Below are positions 7,502 through 36,602 of a DNA stretch of 36,602 bases, in pieces. The stretch covers positions 1 to 36,602 of the forward strand of contig JAIPJP010000001.1 of the NCBI GenBank assembly GCA_021734105.1. Direction: 5' to 3'. The stretch's first letter is position 1; the number at the start of each line of letters is the position of its first letter. Made by a program: the position numbers and the translations under genes. The DNA comes from Candidatus Woesearchaeota archaeon. GTDB lineage: Archaea; Nanobdellota; Nanobdellia; Woesearchaeales; SKGA01. The notes beneath the pieces are model-generated. The model was given only the letters and a program-made list of their open reading frames with translations. It had not been told where the DNA came from and made no database searches.

Positions 7502-8461
7502 ATGAAAGCATGGTATAAAAGACTTGGTTATTACGAGAACCCGTTTCTCATCAAACCGCTCCAAGAAATGACTAAATTATATGGTCAAGAAGAACAACTC
7601 AATGACGCGTTGTATTATGTTCGTTCGGGAGCAACAATTTTTGTTGAAGCAAAGAAAGGTGCAGGTAAAACTAAATTCTTACGAAAAATTATTGAAAGTT
7701 TTAAAGGAAGAATTATTTATGTTGATGCAGCTAAGCTTAAGAAAAATCTTAATATTGAAGAATTACTTCGAAAACGAAATGGTATGAAAGGAAAACTTCT
7801 TGGTAGCAAACCAAGAGAAATGATTCTTGTCATCGATAATGTTGATGAACTATCTCATGTGAATACGGAACGACTCAAATATTATTTTGATTATGGCTAC
7901 TTGCATTCAGTTGTCATGGCGGGCAAGTCATTTAAGAAAGTGCCTTTTAGTGAAAGTATGGCTAATCGTATTGGTCGACGAGTTATTAAACTTGATGATT
8001 TAACAAAAGATCAAGCAATTGAACTCGCCTTTGAGCGTCTTGATGAATTCAAAGATGATGAGGATGCACTTATCAAACAAAAACTTATTCAGAAAATTTT
8101 TGAAAAAAATACAAATCCTCGCATGTTTTTAATTAACTTGCACCGCGTTTTTGAAGAAATGGGTTTTGAAGAAGATGAAAAAGTTCTTGATAAACATCTA
8201 AACATTCTTGATGAACCATTGGATGCAGAGGATGAAGAAGATTATGCATCAGCTCTTGGTGAAGAAGTTATTTCTGACGAGGAAAAGCTTGTTGATGAGA
8301 AAGGAAATAAGATTATGAAAGTTGGCGAGTATTACAGATGTCCTGCTTATGAGATGTTTTGTGGTAATTGTGGAGCTATTGTTAAAAGAACGGACACCTG
8401 CTGTCCGGAATGTAATGCTGAGTTTGAAAACACACAAGAAGAAGGTGAAAAAAATGAGTAA
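7502..8461 (+). CDS. P-loop ATPase with C-terminal zinc ribbon (paralogue A)
   Basis: AAA/ORC- or ExeA-like ATPase of 319 residues. It begins with an aromatic W-Y-x-x-L-G-Y-x-x-N-P-F-x-I-K-P motif (residues 4-19). Walker A KKGAGKT is at 51-57 and Walker B MILVID at 107-112. A Sensor/C-domain-like helical part runs to about 235, followed by an acidic linker. A C-terminal treble-Cys ribbon has C287/C290 and C301/C304, with extra C280 and C300. The start has a good GGGTGA ribosome site. It overlaps the next gene, its paralogue, by 8 bases. The partner of the complex is unknown. Confidence 0.8.
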   Translation: MKAWYKRLGYYENPFLIKPLQEMTKLYGQEEQLNDALYYVRSGATIFVEAKKGAGKTKFLRKIIESFKGRIIYVDAAKLKKNLNIEELLRKRNGMKGKLLGSKPREMILVIDNVDELSHVNTERLKYYFDYGYLHSVVMAGKSFKKVPFSESMANRIGRRVIKLDDLTKDQAIELAFERLDEFKDDEDALIKQKLIQKIFEKNTNPRMFLINLHRVFEEMGFEEDEKVLDKHLNILDEPLDAEDEEDYASALGEEVISDEEKLVDEKGNKIMKVGEYYRCPAYEMFCGNCGAIVKRTDTCCPECNAEFENTQEEGEKNE

Positions 8462-9173
8462 GAAAGCTCCTTTATGGTATGAATCACTTGGTTATGCTTA
8501 TAATCCGTTTATTATAAAGCCAGGATTTTTTGATGATGAAGTAGTTGGTTATGATAAAGAAATTGATAATCTTGTGACAAAACTAACCAGTCCTGTTATG
8601 TATTTTTTAGAAGGTGATTTTGGTCTTGGTAAAACAACAATGCTTCGTTATGTAATCAATGAGTTTGCTGGTCAGAAAAAAGTGTTATACATTAGTCGAA
8701 ATAGAAGTGATAGGGCATTTGATTATGCACAGCTTTTGAAAGGTGCAAATAAAGGACTAGGAAAACTTCTTGGTAAAAAAGCAAAAGACGTTATTCTTGT
8801 TGTTGATGAAACTGCAAAGATTAATGCTGCTGATTGTGAGCAAATTGTTGAGTATTTTGAGTCGGGTAATTTTCTTTCCGTTCTTTTTGTTGATAAATCG
8901 TTTAAAGAAGCTCGACTTTCTGATGAGATAAGAAAAATTATTGGCCAACATGTTATGTCGCTTAAGCAACTTAAAGCTGAAGATGCAATTGAGTTAGCAA
9001 GAAGTCGACTTGATGGTAATAATGATTTTATTTCTGATGCTCTTATTAAAGATGTTTTTGATAAATCAGGAAAAAACACTCGATTATTCCTTGCAGCATT
9101 AGAAGATGTATGTAGACATGCTGTTAGTACAGGTCAAAAAAAAGTCACTAAAGATGATCTAAAAGTTTTATAA
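8454..9173 (+). CDS. P-loop ATPase (paralogue B)
   Basis: A 239-residue paralogue of the preceding gene without the zinc ribbon. It shares the W-Y-x-x-L-G-Y-x-x-N-P-F-x-I-K-P entry motif (8-23), Walker A GDFGLGKT (54-61), Walker B VILVVDE (113-119), and a V-D-K-S-F-K-E-A segment matching paralogue A. Shared lines such as KLLGKKAKDVILVVDE and AIELARSRLD show a tandem duplication. I chose the ATG at 8454 because GAAGGTGA precedes it; the frame is open further upstream, but only inside paralogue A. It is two bases from the receiver gene. It may form a hetero-oligomer with paralogue A; this is inference. Confidence 0.82.
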   Translation: MSKKAPLWYESLGYAYNPFIIKPGFFDDEVVGYDKEIDNLVTKLTSPVMYFLEGDFGLGKTTMLRYVINEFAGQKKVLYISRNRSDRAFDYAQLLKGANKGLGKLLGKKAKDVILVVDETAKINAADCEQIVEYFESGNFLSVLFVDKSFKEARLSDEIRKIIGQHVMSLKQLKAEDAIELARSRLDGNNDFISDALIKDVFDKSGKNTRLFLAALEDVCRHAVSTGQKKVTKDDLKVL

Positions 9174-9175
9174 AC

Positions 9176-9592
9176 ATGAAGTCAGATAATAAAGAACCTC
9201 ATAGGGGTCAACTAGATGACATGGTGAATGATGCTTTTTCTAAAAAGAGAATTCTTATTGCAGAAGATGATGAACTTTCTAGAATGATTTTTAGTTTTCA
9301 ATTACAAGACGAGTACGATGTTTTTTTTGCTAATGATGGTAAAGCAGCAACTGATTTAGTTTTATCATATCATTATGATTTAATTATCTTAGATGAGCGT
9401 ATGCCAAAAATGAGTGGTTCTAAGGCGAATGAAGAGATTAGACAATATCAGCCAGACGTTCCTATTTTTGGTATAAGTGCATCATTTGGTGAGTTAAGTT
9501 ATTTATATGAAGTAAAAGACAAGTATGATGAAGTGCTTGCTAAACCATATGATGTGGATGTTCTTCGTAATCTAATTAGAAAATACATATAA
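9176..9592 (+). CDS. CheY-like response-regulator receiver protein
   Basis: Stand-alone phosphoacceptor domain of 138 residues. The acidic pocket E30-D31-D32, phosphoacceptor Asp73 (LIILDERMPKMSG), Ser101 and Lys123 (AKPYD) are all present, so it should be phosphorylatable. A ~22-residue N-terminal extension precedes the fold. There is no output domain. No histidine kinase, CheA or flagellar switch gene is in the window. It starts two bases after paralogue B's stop codon, so translational coupling is likely and the ATPases are the natural output partners (inference). Confidence 0.9.
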   Translation: MKSDNKEPHRGQLDDMVNDAFSKKRILIAEDDELSRMIFSFQLQDEYDVFFANDGKAATDLVLSYHYDLIILDERMPKMSGSKANEEIRQYQPDVPIFGISASFGELSYLYEVKDKYDEVLAKPYDVDVLRNLIRKYI

Positions 9593-9662
9593 TTTTTTAT
9601 TTTTTTGTTTTCTTGTTTTTTGATTTTTTTTTGTTTTTTTTGCTCAATTTTCTTGTTTTTGT
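9593..9662 (+). terminator. T-rich terminator after the ATPase-receiver operon
   Basis: About 70 bases dominated by T runs of 4-9 start at the receiver stop codon. This is typical of archaeal U-tract termination and closes the operon. Confidence 0.6.
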
Positions 9663-9825: not shown

Positions 9826-9848
9826 GAATCTTGCTTACAAAGCAGCAG

Positions 9849-10232
9849 ATGACCTCTGCAAAAGATACTGATGATGAACAGCATATAATTGGTTTTACAG
9901 AACCTGTATTATGTACATCGAATGGTAAGCATATTCAAGTTCGAGCAAGAATTGATACTGGTGCTTCAAAAAGTTCAATTGATGAAAAACTAGCTAAAGA
10001 ATTAGGTTTAGGTCCTATTTTGGGCGAGAAAACAATTCGTAACGCGCATGGAAGTAGTTCAAGAAAATTTGTAGATGTAACTATTGAACTTGCGGGAAGA
10101 AAATTTACTGAACATTTTACTATTGCTGACAGATCAACTATGCGTTTTCCCGTACTTATTGGTCGCAATATTTTACGAAAAGGTTTTTTAATTAATCCAA
10201 AAAGAAAAGCCCGCAAGGTGCAACTGAAATGA
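9849..10232 (+). CDS. Retropepsin-like protein, RimB-type (ATP-dependent zinc protease family)
   Basis: 127-residue single-domain aspartic-protease fold. The catalytic-type motif R-A-R-I-D-T-G-A-S is at residues 32-40 (Asp36), with a second strand pair ending in FPVLIGRNILRKGFLINP. This is the family that in Proteobacteria lies next to rimK and trims or tunes glutamate tails. The gene overlaps the RimK-like ATP-grasp gene by ATGA, so the pairing is preserved here. The start at 9849 is set by the promoter spacing. The substrate in this organism is unknown. Confidence 0.85.
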   Translation: MTSAKDTDDEQHIIGFTEPVLCTSNGKHIQVRARIDTGASKSSIDEKLAKELGLGPILGEKTIRNAHGSSSRKFVDVTIELAGRKFTEHFTIADRSTMRFPVLIGRNILRKGFLINPKRKARKVQLK

Positions 10233-11323
10233 AAGCAGCATTAATTAGTTTAGAAAGTGAGTCAAGTAAATGGACGGCTGTTGCAATGGAGAAATATTTT
10301 GATGAAGTTGATTTACTTAATATTCGTCATATCGAAATTAGTATTAGTGGTAAGAAAGCAGAAATTTTATACAAAGGAACTCCTTTAGCAAGATATGATT
10401 GTATTTTTGCAAAAGGCTCGTTTCGTTACGCTAATCTTCTTAAAACATTAACGCTTCTTATTAATGGTACTGCTTATATGCCGATTAGTGATAGAGCGTT
10501 TACGTTTGCTCATGATAAACTTTTAACACAACTAGAGTTTCAAAGAAATGGTATTCCTATGCCTACAACGTATTTGGCATCAACTATTACTGCGGCACGT
10601 TCTATTCTTGAGCGACTTAATTATCCAATTATTATGAAGTTTCCTCAAGGAACAGGTGGAAAAGGTGTGCTTTTTGCTGAAAGTTTTGCATCAGCATCAT
10701 CTATTCTTGATGCGCTTTCCTCTCTTCGTCAGCCGTTTATTATTCAAGAGTTTTTAGAAACTGGTGGGCGTGATGTGCGTGCATTCGTTATTGGTGGTCA
10801 AGTTACTGCTGCTTATCAACGAAAAGCAAAGAAGAATGAAGCTCGATCAAATATTCATTCTGGTGGAACTGGTGATGTTATTGAGCTTGATGATGAAACA
10901 AAGCGTATTGCAGTAAAGGCAGCAGAAGCGCTTGGTGCAGATGTTTGTGGCGTGGATATTTTAATGACCCATAAAGGACCTATGGTTTTAGAAGTTAATT
11001 TAAGTCCTGGTTTGCAAGGCATTACTCAATACACAGGAATTGATATTGCTGATAAAATTGCAAAATATCTTGCTGACAGAACACAAGCAAAGATGAATCG
11101 CTCTCAAAAGAAAGGAGCTGATAAAGTGCTTTCGGTTATTGATAAGGCTGATAAAAAAGAAGACACGCTTATTACTTCAATTGATTTTAGAGGAAGTCGC
11201 GTTTTACTTCCTGAAATGGTTTCTAAATTAGCGAACTTTAAAGAAGATGATGACTATGAGTTTGTCGTAAAAAATAGCGAAATTTATATTAAGAAGTTTG
11301 AGATGAAAGAATATAAAGATTAG
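10229..11323 (+). CDS. RimK-like ATP-grasp ligase with C-terminal extension
   Basis: ATP-grasp enzyme of 364 residues that probably adds an amino acid (often glutamate) to a peptide or protein carboxylate. A pre-ATP domain fills residues 1-90. The grasp domain (about 95-285) includes MKFPQGTGGKGV (136-147), IIQEFLETGGRDVRAFVIGG (171-190) and the metal-binding VLEVNLSPG (253-261). Residues 290-364 are an extra lysine-rich linker and a compact segment (DFRGSRVLLPEMV...YEFVVKNSEIYIKK) that faintly resembles an AbrB-like beta hairpin. RimK, MptN/CofF and LysX are related options. Its substrate cannot be read from the sequence. Confidence 0.88.
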   Translation: MKAALISLESESSKWTAVAMEKYFDEVDLLNIRHIEISISGKKAEILYKGTPLARYDCIFAKGSFRYANLLKTLTLLINGTAYMPISDRAFTFAHDKLLTQLEFQRNGIPMPTTYLASTITAARSILERLNYPIIMKFPQGTGGKGVLFAESFASASSILDALSSLRQPFIIQEFLETGGRDVRAFVIGGQVTAAYQRKAKKNEARSNIHSGGTGDVIELDDETKRIAVKAAEALGADVCGVDILMTHKGPMVLEVNLSPGLQGITQYTGIDIADKIAKYLADRTQAKMNRSQKKGADKVLSVIDKADKKEDTLITSIDFRGSRVLLPEMVSKLANFKEDDDYEFVVKNSEIYIKKFEMKEYKD

Positions 11324-15363: not shown

Positions 15364-15699
15364 CTATGATTTGTCAAGTCGTGTGCTCATCTCTTTAAGT
15401 TTGTCAATAACGTGTTGTTGATTATTTTTTTTGCTCAGTTCAATGAATCGAATGATTTCATCTTGTAATGCTTTCACATCTTTGATGAGAAGAATTTTTC
15501 GAGAGTGGATAAAATAAAATCGAAATGTTTTGTATTTTTTCTCTTTGAGGATGAAATTGCCAAACGCATAGAGTAAATCTCCTTGGTAGGGGTTATCTTG
15601 TAGCGAAAGAAATAATTTTTTTATCTCGTGAAGCTCTTTTTTATTAAATTGCTTCTCGAGCTTTTTAACAAGCGTTGTATCTATTCTAACGATTACCAT
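15364..15699 (-). CDS. RelE/ParE-like toxin candidate
   Basis: 111 residues. The order of elements (a long helical hairpin, then LQDNPYQGDLLYAFG and a beta strand series KYKTFRFYFIHSRKILLI) is that of RelE/ParE-fold mRNA interferases or gyrase toxins. A helical C-terminal extension follows. It overlaps the upstream small antitoxin-like gene by 7 bases, the classic toxin-antitoxin arrangement. Catalytic residues cannot be assigned with confidence. Confidence 0.65.
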   Translation of the reverse strand: MVIVRIDTTLVKKLEKQFNKKELHEIKKLFLSLQDNPYQGDLLYAFGNFILKEKKYKTFRFYFIHSRKILLIKDVKALQDEIIRFIELSKKNNQQHVIDKLKEMSTRLDKS

Positions 15700-15869
15700 T
15701 CTAAGTCATTTACATCTACAGTGTCTTCTAAGTCTAAGAAAAGTTTTGCAAATTGGGTTTCTATTGCGGAGTTGTAGAGGCGCTCTAAAATCTGATTGTA
15801 TGTTTCGTTTTTGTGTCCAAATTCAGATATTTTTTGATGTATTTCTTCATTGACTGCGATAGTTTTCAT
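15693..15869 (-). CDS. Small antitoxin-like protein
   Basis: 58 residues beginning MKTIAVNEEIHQKISEFGHKN, a short beta strand plus helices typical of VapB/RHH-type archaeal antitoxins. An acidic C-terminal segment (FLDLEDTVDVNDLEW) would bind the toxin. The ATG at 15869 is preferred over longer frames because GGGTGAT (minus strand, 15874-15880) stands 4 bases upstream. It precedes and overlaps the RelE-like gene. Confidence 0.72.
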   Translation of the reverse strand: MKTIAVNEEIHQKISEFGHKNETYNQILERLYNSAIETQFAKLFLDLEDTVDVNDLEW

Positions 15870-16115
15870 AGGTATCACCCATTTATAAGAAATATAATAA
15901 TTATAAATATTATAAATGTTTTCATTTTTTAAGTTATTTTGCATTTTTTACTTGTTCGATTTAATTCTTTAAAATCATCACGTCAACTTGTCTAGTGCTT
16001 GTTTTTGCACAGGAGGAAAATTTCAACTAAATAGAATTAGATATTTGTTATTATTACCTTAATACCTATACAGCAATGGCAGAAATCTACAAAAAGAAAT
16101 AATTCTTTCTTAACC

Positions 16116-16666: not shown

Positions 16667-16749
16667 TTTTTCCGTAAAATTTTCAATTTTTTCTTAGAAG
16701 ACTATTTAATGCTCTTTCATAGACTTTATGCTATGAGTATTTCAGAAAA

Positions 16750-16760
16750 CTATATAAGTA
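16750..16760 (+). promoter_or_regulatory. TATA box for the MazEF-like pair (leaderless)
   Basis: CTATATAAGTA is centred about 28 bases before the ATG at 16784, which selects this start over longer in-frame options. Confidence 0.6.
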
Positions 16761-16783
16761 AGAATAGTCTTACTAGTCTTACC

Positions 16784-17053
16784 ATGCTTGAAACGGTAAA
16801 ATTATCTTCAAAAGGTCAAATTGTTATTCCTGAACGAATTAGAAAAAAACTCGGTCTCAAAGAAGGCGATAATTTAATTCTTCGGGAGGAAGGCGGTCGT
16901 TTTTCGTTAGAGCAAGAAGAGTCATTTATGCGACATCTTGAGCAATTTGAAAAGCAGCGAGAACGGATGGGTTGGTTAATGCTTGCTGAAGAAAATCTCA
17001 AAAAACTATGGGATAATCCTATTGATGAAAAAGAATGGGGTCGTTATCTTTGA
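16784..17053 (+). CDS. AbrB/MazE-type antitoxin
   Basis: 89 residues. The N-terminal swapped-hairpin DNA-binding domain is textbook: ETVKLSSKGQIVIPERIRKKLGLKEGDNLIL (residues 2-32). The C-terminal half is acidic and helical (FMRHLEQFEKQRERMGW...WDNPIDEKEWGRYL), the toxin-neutralising part. It probably represses its own promoter. The toxin gene overlaps its end. Confidence 0.9.
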   Translation: MLETVKLSSKGQIVIPERIRKKLGLKEGDNLILREEGGRFSLEQEESFMRHLEQFEKQRERMGWLMLAEENLKKLWDNPIDEKEWGRYL

Positions 17054-17382
17054 AGCAGAAGGACTTGTTTTTAGTTTCCTTTCCTTTCTCTGATTTATCT
17101 AAAACGAAAGTACGTCCAGCAATTATTGTCTCTAACAATAAGTTCAACAAGAAAAGCGAAGATGTTATTGTTTGCGGTATTACTGCGCAACAATCTTTAA
17201 AGAAAACTCATTTGCAGATTAACACAACTTCATTGTCTTCTGGAAAACTTCATAGGTCTTGCTCTATTGAACCTGAATCCCTTTTCAAGATGGACAAACG
17301 ATTGCTTCTCAAACAAATTGGAGTTCTAAAGGAAAAACCTTTCCAAGATCTTTCGAATAAATTGCACGAACTACTTTCTTAA
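17035..17382 (+). CDS. MazF/PemK-type endoribonuclease toxin
   Basis: 115 residues with the CcdB/PemK fold: QKDLFLVSFPFSDLSKTKVRPAIIVSNN, then DVIVCGIT and a CSIEPESLFKMDKRLLLKQIG segment. Members cut mRNA at short motifs. The ATG at 17035 overlaps the antitoxin by 19 bases. A TTG at 17050 (sharing TTGA with the antitoxin stop) would begin right at KQKDLFLV and is a good alternative start. The pair forms a type II toxin-antitoxin module. Confidence 0.88.
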   Translation: MGSLSLKQKDLFLVSFPFSDLSKTKVRPAIIVSNNKFNKKSEDVIVCGITAQQSLKKTHLQINTTSLSSGKLHRSCSIEPESLFKMDKRLLLKQIGVLKEKPFQDLSNKLHELLS

Positions 17383-34068: not shown

Positions 34069-36602
34069 ATGAAACGTGACAAGAGGGTAGTTACTCGCTA
34101 TTCAACATTTTTGTTTTTTGCGCTAGTTATAGGTTTCATTATTGCATTAATTTTTGTTACTCCTTCTCTTACAGGTAATATTACTGCTAATCCCCTTGCT
34201 AATGCCGATCTTTATGAAACGCTTATTATTAACAAGAGTTATACTTCTCAACTTGAACCTTATGTTGTATCTTTTCCCCTTAATAATTCTCTTGATGCGC
34301 TGTTGGTTTCTGGTCAGCTTCGTGGTACTGGCGCTGTAGAGATTTTTCTTTTTAATGAAACTGATGAGTGGTTGGTGTATGCGTATACCTCGAATGGTGA
34401 AGCTTCTTCTTTAACAGGCATGGTTACTGGTTCAAATATGACTACTTCTTTGCTGGCGAATACGAGTAGTCAAAACAATTCTTCTATGGTTGTTTCCCTA
34501 AACGACGAGCCAGATAGTGTTTTTTCCGAGATTAAAAATGTGAGTAACGTTTCTACTACAGCGTCTGCTAATGATGCTCTTCATGATGGGTTGGTAAATG
34601 AAACAAATGTTGTTGATACGGATGAGTTTGTTGTTTTGCCTGTACGAGAAGATAATCATTCAACAGATAATCAAACACTTAATGATTCTCTTGCGAATAC
34701 TACTACGTCTCAAGAAGATTTTAACAAATCTGTTGATAAAGATAAAGATGTTGTTGATGAAAATGCTGACGCTGACCAAGAAGATAAAGAAGAAAATAAA
34801 GATAAAGATAAACATAATGATAAAGATACTGACGCTGACCAAGAAGATGTTGCTAGTAAACAAAATGAGAATTGGTTAGGCAGTAATTCTTCTGAGAATA
34901 AACAAGATGCTGTTTTTTCTATTGTTCCTTTTTCTTTAGAGTGTGAAGAGACGTGCGAGTTAGATGGTGTATATGCAAATCAATTACGAATGAAGGTTTC
35001 AGGTAATCTTGAATTATTCCTTAAAGAAGTTGCTGTTAGTACTCGTCAAGAGGCGGCGCAATTTCTTTTTATTCCTGATACGGTTATTTCTTTAAACGAT
35101 TCGTTTGTCCTTGATATATATGAGTATTTTCCATTTAATGAGAATATTATTTTTGACACGCCGTCTGTTGAGGGTTTGTCCTTATCTATTAAAGATAATC
35201 GTTACCTTGTTGTTTCCCCAGAAAAAACGGGTACGTTTTCTTTATTTATGTATGCAACAGACGGTGATGTGCTAAAGCGTTCTAATGAGTTTGCTATTGA
35301 AGTAGTTGTTGATGATGATGTGCAGATAGAAATTATTCAAGAACCAATAGTTACTCCTAACGTCTCTTTAGTTAACACGTCTCTTGCGATGACTTCTTTG
35401 GTTTTAGCTCAGGACATTGTTGCAGTTGCTAGAGCGGACATGTATAAACTTGATTCTGCTGTGCTTGATAGTTTACAAGAAAAGTCTTCTGTTCGTGTTC
35501 TTCTTAAAACGAATCAAGCAACATTCTTGCAAGTAGATGCAACAGCAAGTCCAAATAAAAAAGAATGGTATAATCCATTTGACGCGTCAGCAATTACTAA
35601 AAAAGATGTACAAGACATTGCTAAAGAGCTGAACACGTCCAAAAAAATTATTAATGATGCGCTGTATCTTAATATTGCATCTGGCGAGCCGATTGTTGTT
35701 AAACAAATTGTTACTCAAGATGTTGTTGCTATAGAATTGTCTGCTGCTGCTCTTGCTGACTTGCTTGCGAGTGATATGATTTTAGAAGTTAGTGAAGATA
35801 AACCGATGAATATTTTAACTACTGAAAGTTTGAACTTAACAAATATTTCTGTTGCTCATGATGATTATGGACTTTCTGGTAGTGGTGTTGCTATTTGTGT
35901 TCTTGATACTGGTGCAAATCCTTCTGTTCTTGGTCTTACTAATGGTTCTGATGTTTTTGGTTATAATTTTGTTGATGATACTGCTGATTATTCTGATGTT
36001 CATGGTCATGGTACGAAAGTCTTGTATCCTTTGGTGCAAACAGCTCCTGATGCGACTTATTTTGTTGGAAAGGTTATTAGTGATACTGGTGTTGGTTATT
36101 CTTCTGATGTTGCTGCTGGTTTACAGTGGTGTGCAGATAATAATGCAGATGTTATTTCTTTAAGCATTGGTGAAGGTAGTTATGAAGGTTTTTGTGTTGA
36201 TGATATTGTTGCTGATAAAGTGAATGAGTTGGTCGATGCTGGCATTGTGGTGGTTGCTGCAACAGGTAATGATGGAAGTACTACTGCGATTGCTAATCCT
36301 GCTTGTGCAGAACATGCTTTGCGTGTTGCTGCATCAACAAAGACTGATGAATTGTGGAGTAATAGTAATTATAATAATATTACTTTACTCCTCGCTCCGG
36401 GTGGTGGTATTCAAACACTTGATGAAATGGGGAGCGCAGTGTTTGCTTCAGGTACGTCAATGAGCGTTCCTTTTGTGAGTGGCTCTGTTGCTTTGTTAGT
36501 AGAAGATGATAGTTCTCTAACGCCCAACGCGACGAAGTGGAAACTCATTCATTCAGGAATGGTGATTAATACTTCAGCTAACGATTATTCTTTTGCAAGA
36601 AT
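34069..36602 (+). CDS. Membrane-anchored subtilisin-like serine protease, truncated by window edge
   Basis: At least 844 residues, open at the right edge. A basic N-terminus and one hydrophobic helix (about 12-32) form a signal anchor. An Asn/Ser/Thr-rich region with many N-x-S/T sites follows. Residues ~215-275 are a strongly acidic, Lys-containing linker with DADQED twice. A beta domain comes next, then a propeptide-like segment (about 470-600). The peptidase S8 domain holds the triad Asp613 (VLDTGAN), His647 (HGHGT) and Ser797 (SGTSMSVP) plus oxyanion Asn734 (ATGND). It is probably a secreted, surface-tethered protease of a compact archaeon. Confidence 0.9.
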   Translation, partial: MKRDKRVVTRYSTFLFFALVIGFIIALIFVTPSLTGNITANPLANADLYETLIINKSYTSQLEPYVVSFPLNNSLDALLVSGQLRGTGAVEIFLFNETDEWLVYAYTSNGEASSLTGMVTGSNMTTSLLANTSSQNNSSMVVSLNDEPDSVFSEIKNVSNVSTTASANDALHDGLVNETNVVDTDEFVVLPVREDNHSTDNQTLNDSLANTTTSQEDFNKSVDKDKDVVDENADADQEDKEENKDKDKHNDKDTDADQEDVASKQNENWLGSNSSENKQDAVFSIVPFSLECEETCELDGVYANQLRMKVSGNLELFLKEVAVSTRQEAAQFLFIPDTVISLNDSFVLDIYEYFPFNENIIFDTPSVEGLSLSIKDNRYLVVSPEKTGTFSLFMYATDGDVLKRSNEFAIEVVVDDDVQIEIIQEPIVTPNVSLVNTSLAMTSLVLAQDIVAVARADMYKLDSAVLDSLQEKSSVRVLLKTNQATFLQVDATASPNKKEWYNPFDASAITKKDVQDIAKELNTSKKIINDALYLNIASGEPIVVKQIVTQDVVAIELSAAALADLLASDMILEVSEDKPMNILTTESLNLTNISVAHDDYGLSGSGVAICVLDTGANPSVLGLTNGSDVFGYNFVDDTADYSDVHGHGTKVLYPLVQTAPDATYFVGKVISDTGVGYSSDVAAGLQWCADNNADVISLSIGEGSYEGFCVDDIVADKVNELVDAGIVVVAATGNDGSTTAIANPACAEHALRVAASTKTDELWSNSNYNNITLLLAPGGGIQTLDEMGSAVFASGTSMSVPFVSGSVALLVEDDSSLTPNATKWKLIHSGMVINTSANDYSFAR

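Follow-up and report, generated by a model that had tools for sequence, protein, structure and literature searches.

The locus raises the question of what two adjacent, paralogous P-loop ATPases followed directly by a stand-alone receiver domain might do together in a woesearchaeal archaeon, and whether the receiver belongs to the ATPases at all. We analyzed a stretch of 36,602 nucleotides, the window, from a Candidatus Woesearchaeota archaeon (contig JAIPJP010000001.1 of assembly GCA_021734105.1), whose genome (G000) comprises 1.07 Mb in 42 contigs and is 96.9% complete. The features of the locus are as follows:

7502..8461, forward strand: ATPase A, AAA+ core with a C-terminal zinc ribbon, 319 aa
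7835..7840, forward strand: Walker-B D112-N113 of A, with Asn at the position of the catalytic Glu (no Glu in 66 of 71 pairs)
7967..7969, forward strand: Arg156 of A in the RIGRR motif, at the box-VII arginine-finger position (71 of 71 pairs)
8360..8413, forward strand: zinc ribbon CxxC-x10-CxxC of A, residues 287-304, from the sequence
8454..9173, forward strand: ATPase B, AAA+ core, starting with ATG, 239 aa
8805..8810, forward strand: Walker-B D118-E119 of B (catalytic Glu in 71 of 71 pairs)
9081..9083, forward strand: Arg210 of B in the N-[PT]-R motif (NTR210), lid/sensor-2-like (71 of 71 pairs)
9176..9592, forward strand: stand-alone receiver domain, 138 aa, intact by sequence
9590..9650, forward strand: T-rich tract 3' of the receiver, terminator-like, from the sequence only

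The open reading frames of A and B overlap by 8 nt (ATGAGTAA), and 2 nt separate B from the receiver. A and B are paralogues, a B query matching A with E=9e-33 and 34% identity. An earlier sequence-only reading had assigned both ATPases a common entry motif, W-Y-x-x-L-G-Y-x-x-N-P-F-x-I-K-P, limited the zinc ribbon to the first of them, and noted a complete CheY-like receiver two bases past B and a T-tract closing the operon. All of this could be confirmed: the motif is present in both proteins, the CxxC...CxxC pattern at residues 287-304 of A has no counterpart in B, the receiver matches PF00072 (65 bits, cut-off 30) and contains the acid pair D31/D32 as well as D73, S101 and K123, the residues of a response regulator, and the DNA is T-rich from about 9590. 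The claim of complete Walker A and B motifs in both ATPases held for the two Walker A motifs and for the Walker B of B (ILVVDE), but not for the Walker B of A (ILVIDN), which has lost its catalytic Glu.

Homologue searches showed that the tandem A-B pair is a conserved unit and that the receiver is not part of it. Of 59 kin genomes, 19 contain relatives of B; a B profile matched in 96 of the 353 genomes from the order (E<=1e-8) and in 59 of 371 sampled across the phylum (E<=1e-30), the latter all from the same order or the same class, these counts taking in more distant single-copy relatives too. Among the fetched loci, 76 tandem A-B pairs could be read. Two genomes of the same genus (G001, G002) and one of the same family (G003) carry A-B without a receiver, and in G001 and G003 the pair is closely surrounded by the PIN-type, Rpb7-like, protease and RimK neighbours of the window's genome. 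The B protein at a same-genus locus is 65% identical to that of the window, and a scan of the genome contigs with B returned a single sibling locus (L033). A viral origin of the pair was considered and dropped, as no relative occurred among viral contigs. As side observations, a PF05618 aspartyl/'Zn'-protease-like gene followed by a RimK-type ATP-grasp ligase (window 9831-11323) also lies near A-B in G001, G002 and G003, and a gene for a DRG-like GTPase is found repeatedly close to A-B in several families, in many cases on the other strand (L040, L044, L068, L074, L080, L081, L087, L092, L093, L095).

Receiver homologues exist in 42 of 145 relatives, never adjoining A-B; among the genomes searched, only the window's own places a receiver beside the pair. 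Its genome encodes two receivers, the second also stand-alone and located beside an undecaprenyl-diphosphate-synthase-like gene (contig C19 16220-16573; L049:8203-8580). A search for a cognate histidine kinase in this genome (97% complete) returned only two HATPase_c proteins, of 640 and 558 aa, whose sequences read as GyrB and topoisomerase VI B, respectively. Two-component systems are likewise reported to be missing or scarce in finished DPANN genomes (PMC5847659). Considering the homologues at other places in relatives, the siblings lacking the gene and the lack of a kinase candidate in G000, the receiver is best read as a recent local addition without a known kinase, which may tune A-B from outside the core. 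We likewise rejected it as a conserved component, as siblings have A-B without it and relatives have receivers elsewhere. The phosphorylation-gated hetero-ATPase proposed from the sequence, with the receiver as its switch, draws on the 2-nt spacing and the 8-nt overlap, which suggest one transcript, and on the retained acid pair, phospho-acceptor Asp, Ser and Lys; set against the widespread pairs without a receiver, same genus included, and HATPase_c proteins limited to GyrB and TopoVI-B, we regard it as quite improbable. The conserved ATPase-ATPase-receiver order expected by the same reading was contradicted by the profile search, which found homologous A-B pairs widely without the receiver.

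The hetero-ATPase part of that proposal fared very differently, being strongly backed by complementary catalytic residues. We compared 71 aligned A-B pairs with intact unpaired relatives. The Walker-A Lys is present in all 71 B proteins and in 67 of the A proteins (Arg in the other 4), and both partners retain the Walker-B Asp. The Walker-B Glu is found in 71/71 B proteins and 5/71 A proteins, where Asn (52) or Asp (12) takes its place. For the box-VII Arg the distribution is inverse: it occurs in every A protein and in only seven B proteins, among them that of the sibling G001, and the window's B has Ile162 and no Arg at this position. The Arg of the lid N-P/T-R motif is again universal in B and rare in A (8/71). 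All three residues (Glu, box-VII Arg and NPR-Arg) are intact in the unpaired relatives, namely four wHTH-type singles, L062_147, L163-L167 and four f95 genomes. Partners have thus lost the Walker-B Glu and the arginine finger in complementary fashion, as in a hetero-AAA+ ATPase. Based on these complementary residues and on the intact state of the unpaired relatives, the most likely arrangement is a single composite ATPase site shared between A and B and formed by the nucleotide of B and the finger of A.

A tree built from 80 sequences resolves A and B as one group each (support 80 for A; 97, SH-aLRT, for B), with the f95 singles placed next to B. As A and B are each a single clade, one duplication followed by complementary loss appears to be the simplest history. 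The f95 genomes have one ATPase each. Single-copy relatives with a complete active site were also noted at L050-L053, L062:147-1214 and L163-L167, some with C-terminal helices resembling a winged helix.

No Pfam or NCBIfam model reaches its cut-off on A or B; AAA_22 scored 23 bits on A and 17.9 on B (cut-off 27). Single-chain structure models of the window and L033 proteins, calculated from alignments four deep, gave a pLDDT of 69 for A and 81 for B. Foldseek against the PDB matched these models to ORC1, Cdc6, RFC and RuvB with TM-scores of about 0.5-0.6, with TnsC also among the closest folds, and the top matches ORC1, Cdc6 and RFC identify an initiator-clade AAA+ core in both proteins. In the model of A, R156 ends a helix (151-157) before a strand (161-164). 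In the A profile, the RIGRR stretch lines up with the region of DnaA that comprises box VII and its finger residue (E=2.4e-7).

DnaA combines a trans-acting box-VII Arg with a sensor-II Arg that works in cis (PMC3401641), the same division that we propose for the Arg of A and the lid Arg of B; unlike A-B, it is a homo-oligomer whose single type of chain contributes both arginines, and it has a DNA-binding domain. The closest fold to A and B is found in ORC1-ORC4, likewise unequal AAA+ paralogues of which one retains the Walker-B Glu and the lid arginine and the neighbour gives the finger; in yeast ORC, ORC1 alone is active and ORC4 gives the arginine finger (PMC5291709). In contrast to ORC1-ORC4, A and B lack a winged-helix DNA-binding domain, are linked to membrane proteins and stem from a separate duplication inside one archaeal class. 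By analogy, A-B would work like ORC1-ORC4 at the active site, yet the pair is not a member of the Orc1/Cdc6 family, as the orc1/cdc6 model TIGR02928 gave 13.8 bits where its cut-off demands 181 and neither protein carries a C-terminal winged helix, B stopping after the lid helices and A running into a linker and the zinc ribbon.

The gene directly upstream of A connects the pair to the membrane. For 52 of 84 A genes, including three single-ATPase f95 loci, an ORF whose product ends in a conserved, cytoplasmic helical tail lies directly upstream within 700 nt, often with a 4-nt overlap; in the three f95 genomes scored for the tail, the single ATPase directly follows the tail gene. The tail segment consists of a transmembrane (TM) helix followed by about 45 residues of the type KAxxxHxKAxxLHxxGxxxxAxxYYxxAxxYRxKA. 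The proteins bearing it are single-pass membrane proteins of about 55 to 2,300 aa, ranging from tiny anchors of 55-85 aa (L148, L150, L144, L076) over mid-size forms of 116-340 aa to giants of 1,668-2,295 aa (L041, L046, L040, L056, L039, L060), some of them adhesin-like. By a simple hydropathy scan, the larger ones have a signal-peptide-like start and one further TM before the tail, and the four giants scanned contain Ig-like, PKD, beta-helix or similar repeat domains. The tail weakly resembles DUF1771, TPR and MIT hairpins (DUF1771, best E=1.4e-4, 8 of 15 members; MIT, 15.7 bits against a cut-off of 30, the one match with scores).

At E<=1e-4 the tail was detected in 42 of 353 genomes of the order, that is, in 37 of about 55 genomes with a strong pair and in 5 of about 298 others (Fisher p about 5e-31, uncorrected for kinship). 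Gene order and co-occurrence together show the association of A-B with the tail protein. Giants ending in the tail also occur in a small number of genomes in which no pair was detected (G065, G158). Conversely, the tail profile search recognised no tail protein in the pair-bearing genomes G002 (99% complete) and G003 nor in the f36 and g62 groups, and a lax search of pair-bearing genomes without tail gave matches at noise level only. An attempt to locate the G002 tail protein by synteny found other genes in the syntenic place. As no tail was found in G002, G003 and several other pair-bearing groups, the tail partner is common but not universal, or too diverged to see. The zinc ribbon of A tracks some lineages (f1, f36 and several with giants) and is missing in most with short anchors. 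It may be an alternative dock. The docking role suggested for it from the sequence is possible, but many A proteins lack a ribbon.

We consider it probable that A-B is a hetero-AAA+ switch coupled to surface proteins, in which the split ATPase works with the tail protein at the membrane. A and B would be unequal subunits of one initiator-type (ORC/Cdc6/DnaA-like) AAA+ ATPase that arose by one duplication. Judged from the residue patterns, B would bind and hydrolyse ATP through the Walker A, the Walker-B Glu and the lid arginine of its own chain, and A, predicted to bind nucleotide and to be catalytically impaired, would supply the arginine finger in trans to the site of B. In most lineages the pair would reside at the cytoplasmic membrane face, presumably recruited to the helical tail of the surface protein. 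ATP binding or hydrolysis would then act as an assembly switch, either to assemble, cluster or remodel the surface proteins or to read their engagement. The pair-bearing genomes in which no tail protein was recognised, the tailed giants of genomes lacking the pair and the seven B proteins with a box-VII Arg speak against this model.

Other functions of A-B have to be weighed against this membrane-coupled switch. A motor for the secretion or assembly of surface proteins, like ExeA/GspA or the VirB4/TraG-type ATPase of Nanohaloarchaea, would fit the several giant Ig/PKD/beta-helix membrane proteins encoded directly upstream of A. We take the N-terminal W-Y..NPF-like entry motif and the P-loop of A and B to resemble ExeA/GspA, and the P-loop is ORC/AAA_22-like in both cases. 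Unlike ExeA/GspA, A and B are two unequal subunits without a TM segment, which also speaks against a motor, and without a peptidoglycan-binding domain. The nearest published gene order to the A-B locus, which also counts in favour of a motor, is that of Nanohaloarchaea, in which a giant surface protein gene is followed by a VirB4/TraG-type ATPase gene (PMC10266531). Both cases concern DPANN archaea, and in the Nanohaloarchaeal locus, too, the gene of a giant, Ig-rich protein anchored in the membrane is immediately followed by an ATPase gene. The A-B locus differs by its two ORC-like AAA+ proteins, the conserved helical tail and a membrane partner that is often tiny rather than giant, and neither a VirB4/CagE or TraG domain nor ExeA appeared among the Pfam matches of A, B and 14 members of the B alignment. 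Many partners are TM-plus-tail proteins of 55-85 aa with almost no ectodomain to secrete, and these tiny anchors argue against a pure secretion motor, a reading that we therefore hold to be unlikely.

An action on DNA, with A-B as a divergent Orc1/Cdc6- or TnsC-like initiator or regulator and an incidental membrane link, is suggested by the closest folds (ORC1/Cdc6, RFC, RuvB, TnsC) and by the C-terminal helices of single-copy relatives, which by eye resemble a winged helix. A and B themselves end without any such domain, A in a ribbon or nothing, and the gene order linking the pair to membrane proteins is seen in several families, both within the window's order and beyond it, making this reading very improbable. 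Weak nSTAND and ATPase_2 matches, together with weak PADLOC matches (mad8, DolB, AbiO), would point to a STAND-like conflict or defence ATPase sensing an extracellular or membrane cue. All of them stay under their cut-offs (nSTAND5, 21.9 bits against 34), typical of shared P-loops, and neither an effector domain nor defence genes were found beside the pair, so that we give this idea hardly any credence.

More tentatively, and at somewhat less than even chances, the coupled switch could represent an undescribed archaeal transmembrane machine, in which an ORC-like AAA+ hetero-ATPase with a single composite site docks on the cytoplasmic tails of surface proteins; in the literature searched, which left out most subscription journals, we found no description of the A-B pair. 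DPANN archaea live attached to other cells. If such a machine exists, these symbiont-like archaea would couple ATP turnover to cell-surface contact through tailed surface proteins spanning tiny anchors to 2,000-residue adhesins, and the A-B pair, being genetically tied to surface proteins, is a concrete candidate for communication between surface and interior. The pair further offers a clear example of an enzyme divided by gene duplication, in which each copy kept the half of the active site missing from the other. The split mirrors ORC1/ORC4, apparently independently, and unsplit single-copy relatives survive for comparison.

In the f1 family the tail gene is not beside A. With a tail profile built from other families, without the window's genus (alignment A3), we identified a tail protein of 237 aa in the window's own genome (contig C1 80148-80861; L108:1003-1716; E=8.7e-14), encoded 71 kb away from A-B and unlinked to it, and one of 212 aa in G001 (E=1.7e-12). 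Both comprise a signal peptide, an ectodomain, a TM and the tail, and their genes occupy syntenic places. As the G000 gene lies outside the window, the partner could not have been seen from the window. In the G000 protein, the TM is closely preceded by TGAVIG and followed by MPW, and ITGAxxG/GGMPW look-alikes of these motifs were noted in L065, L099, L046 and L194. Elsewhere in the window, two gene pairs look by eye like toxin-antitoxin systems, one RelE/ParE-like with a small partner (15364-15944) and one AbrB-like with a MazF/PemK-like protein (16709-17382). A secreted surface protein of 4,222 aa starts in the window (34069-36602) and extends to contig position 46737, followed from 47218 by the gene of another large secreted protein.
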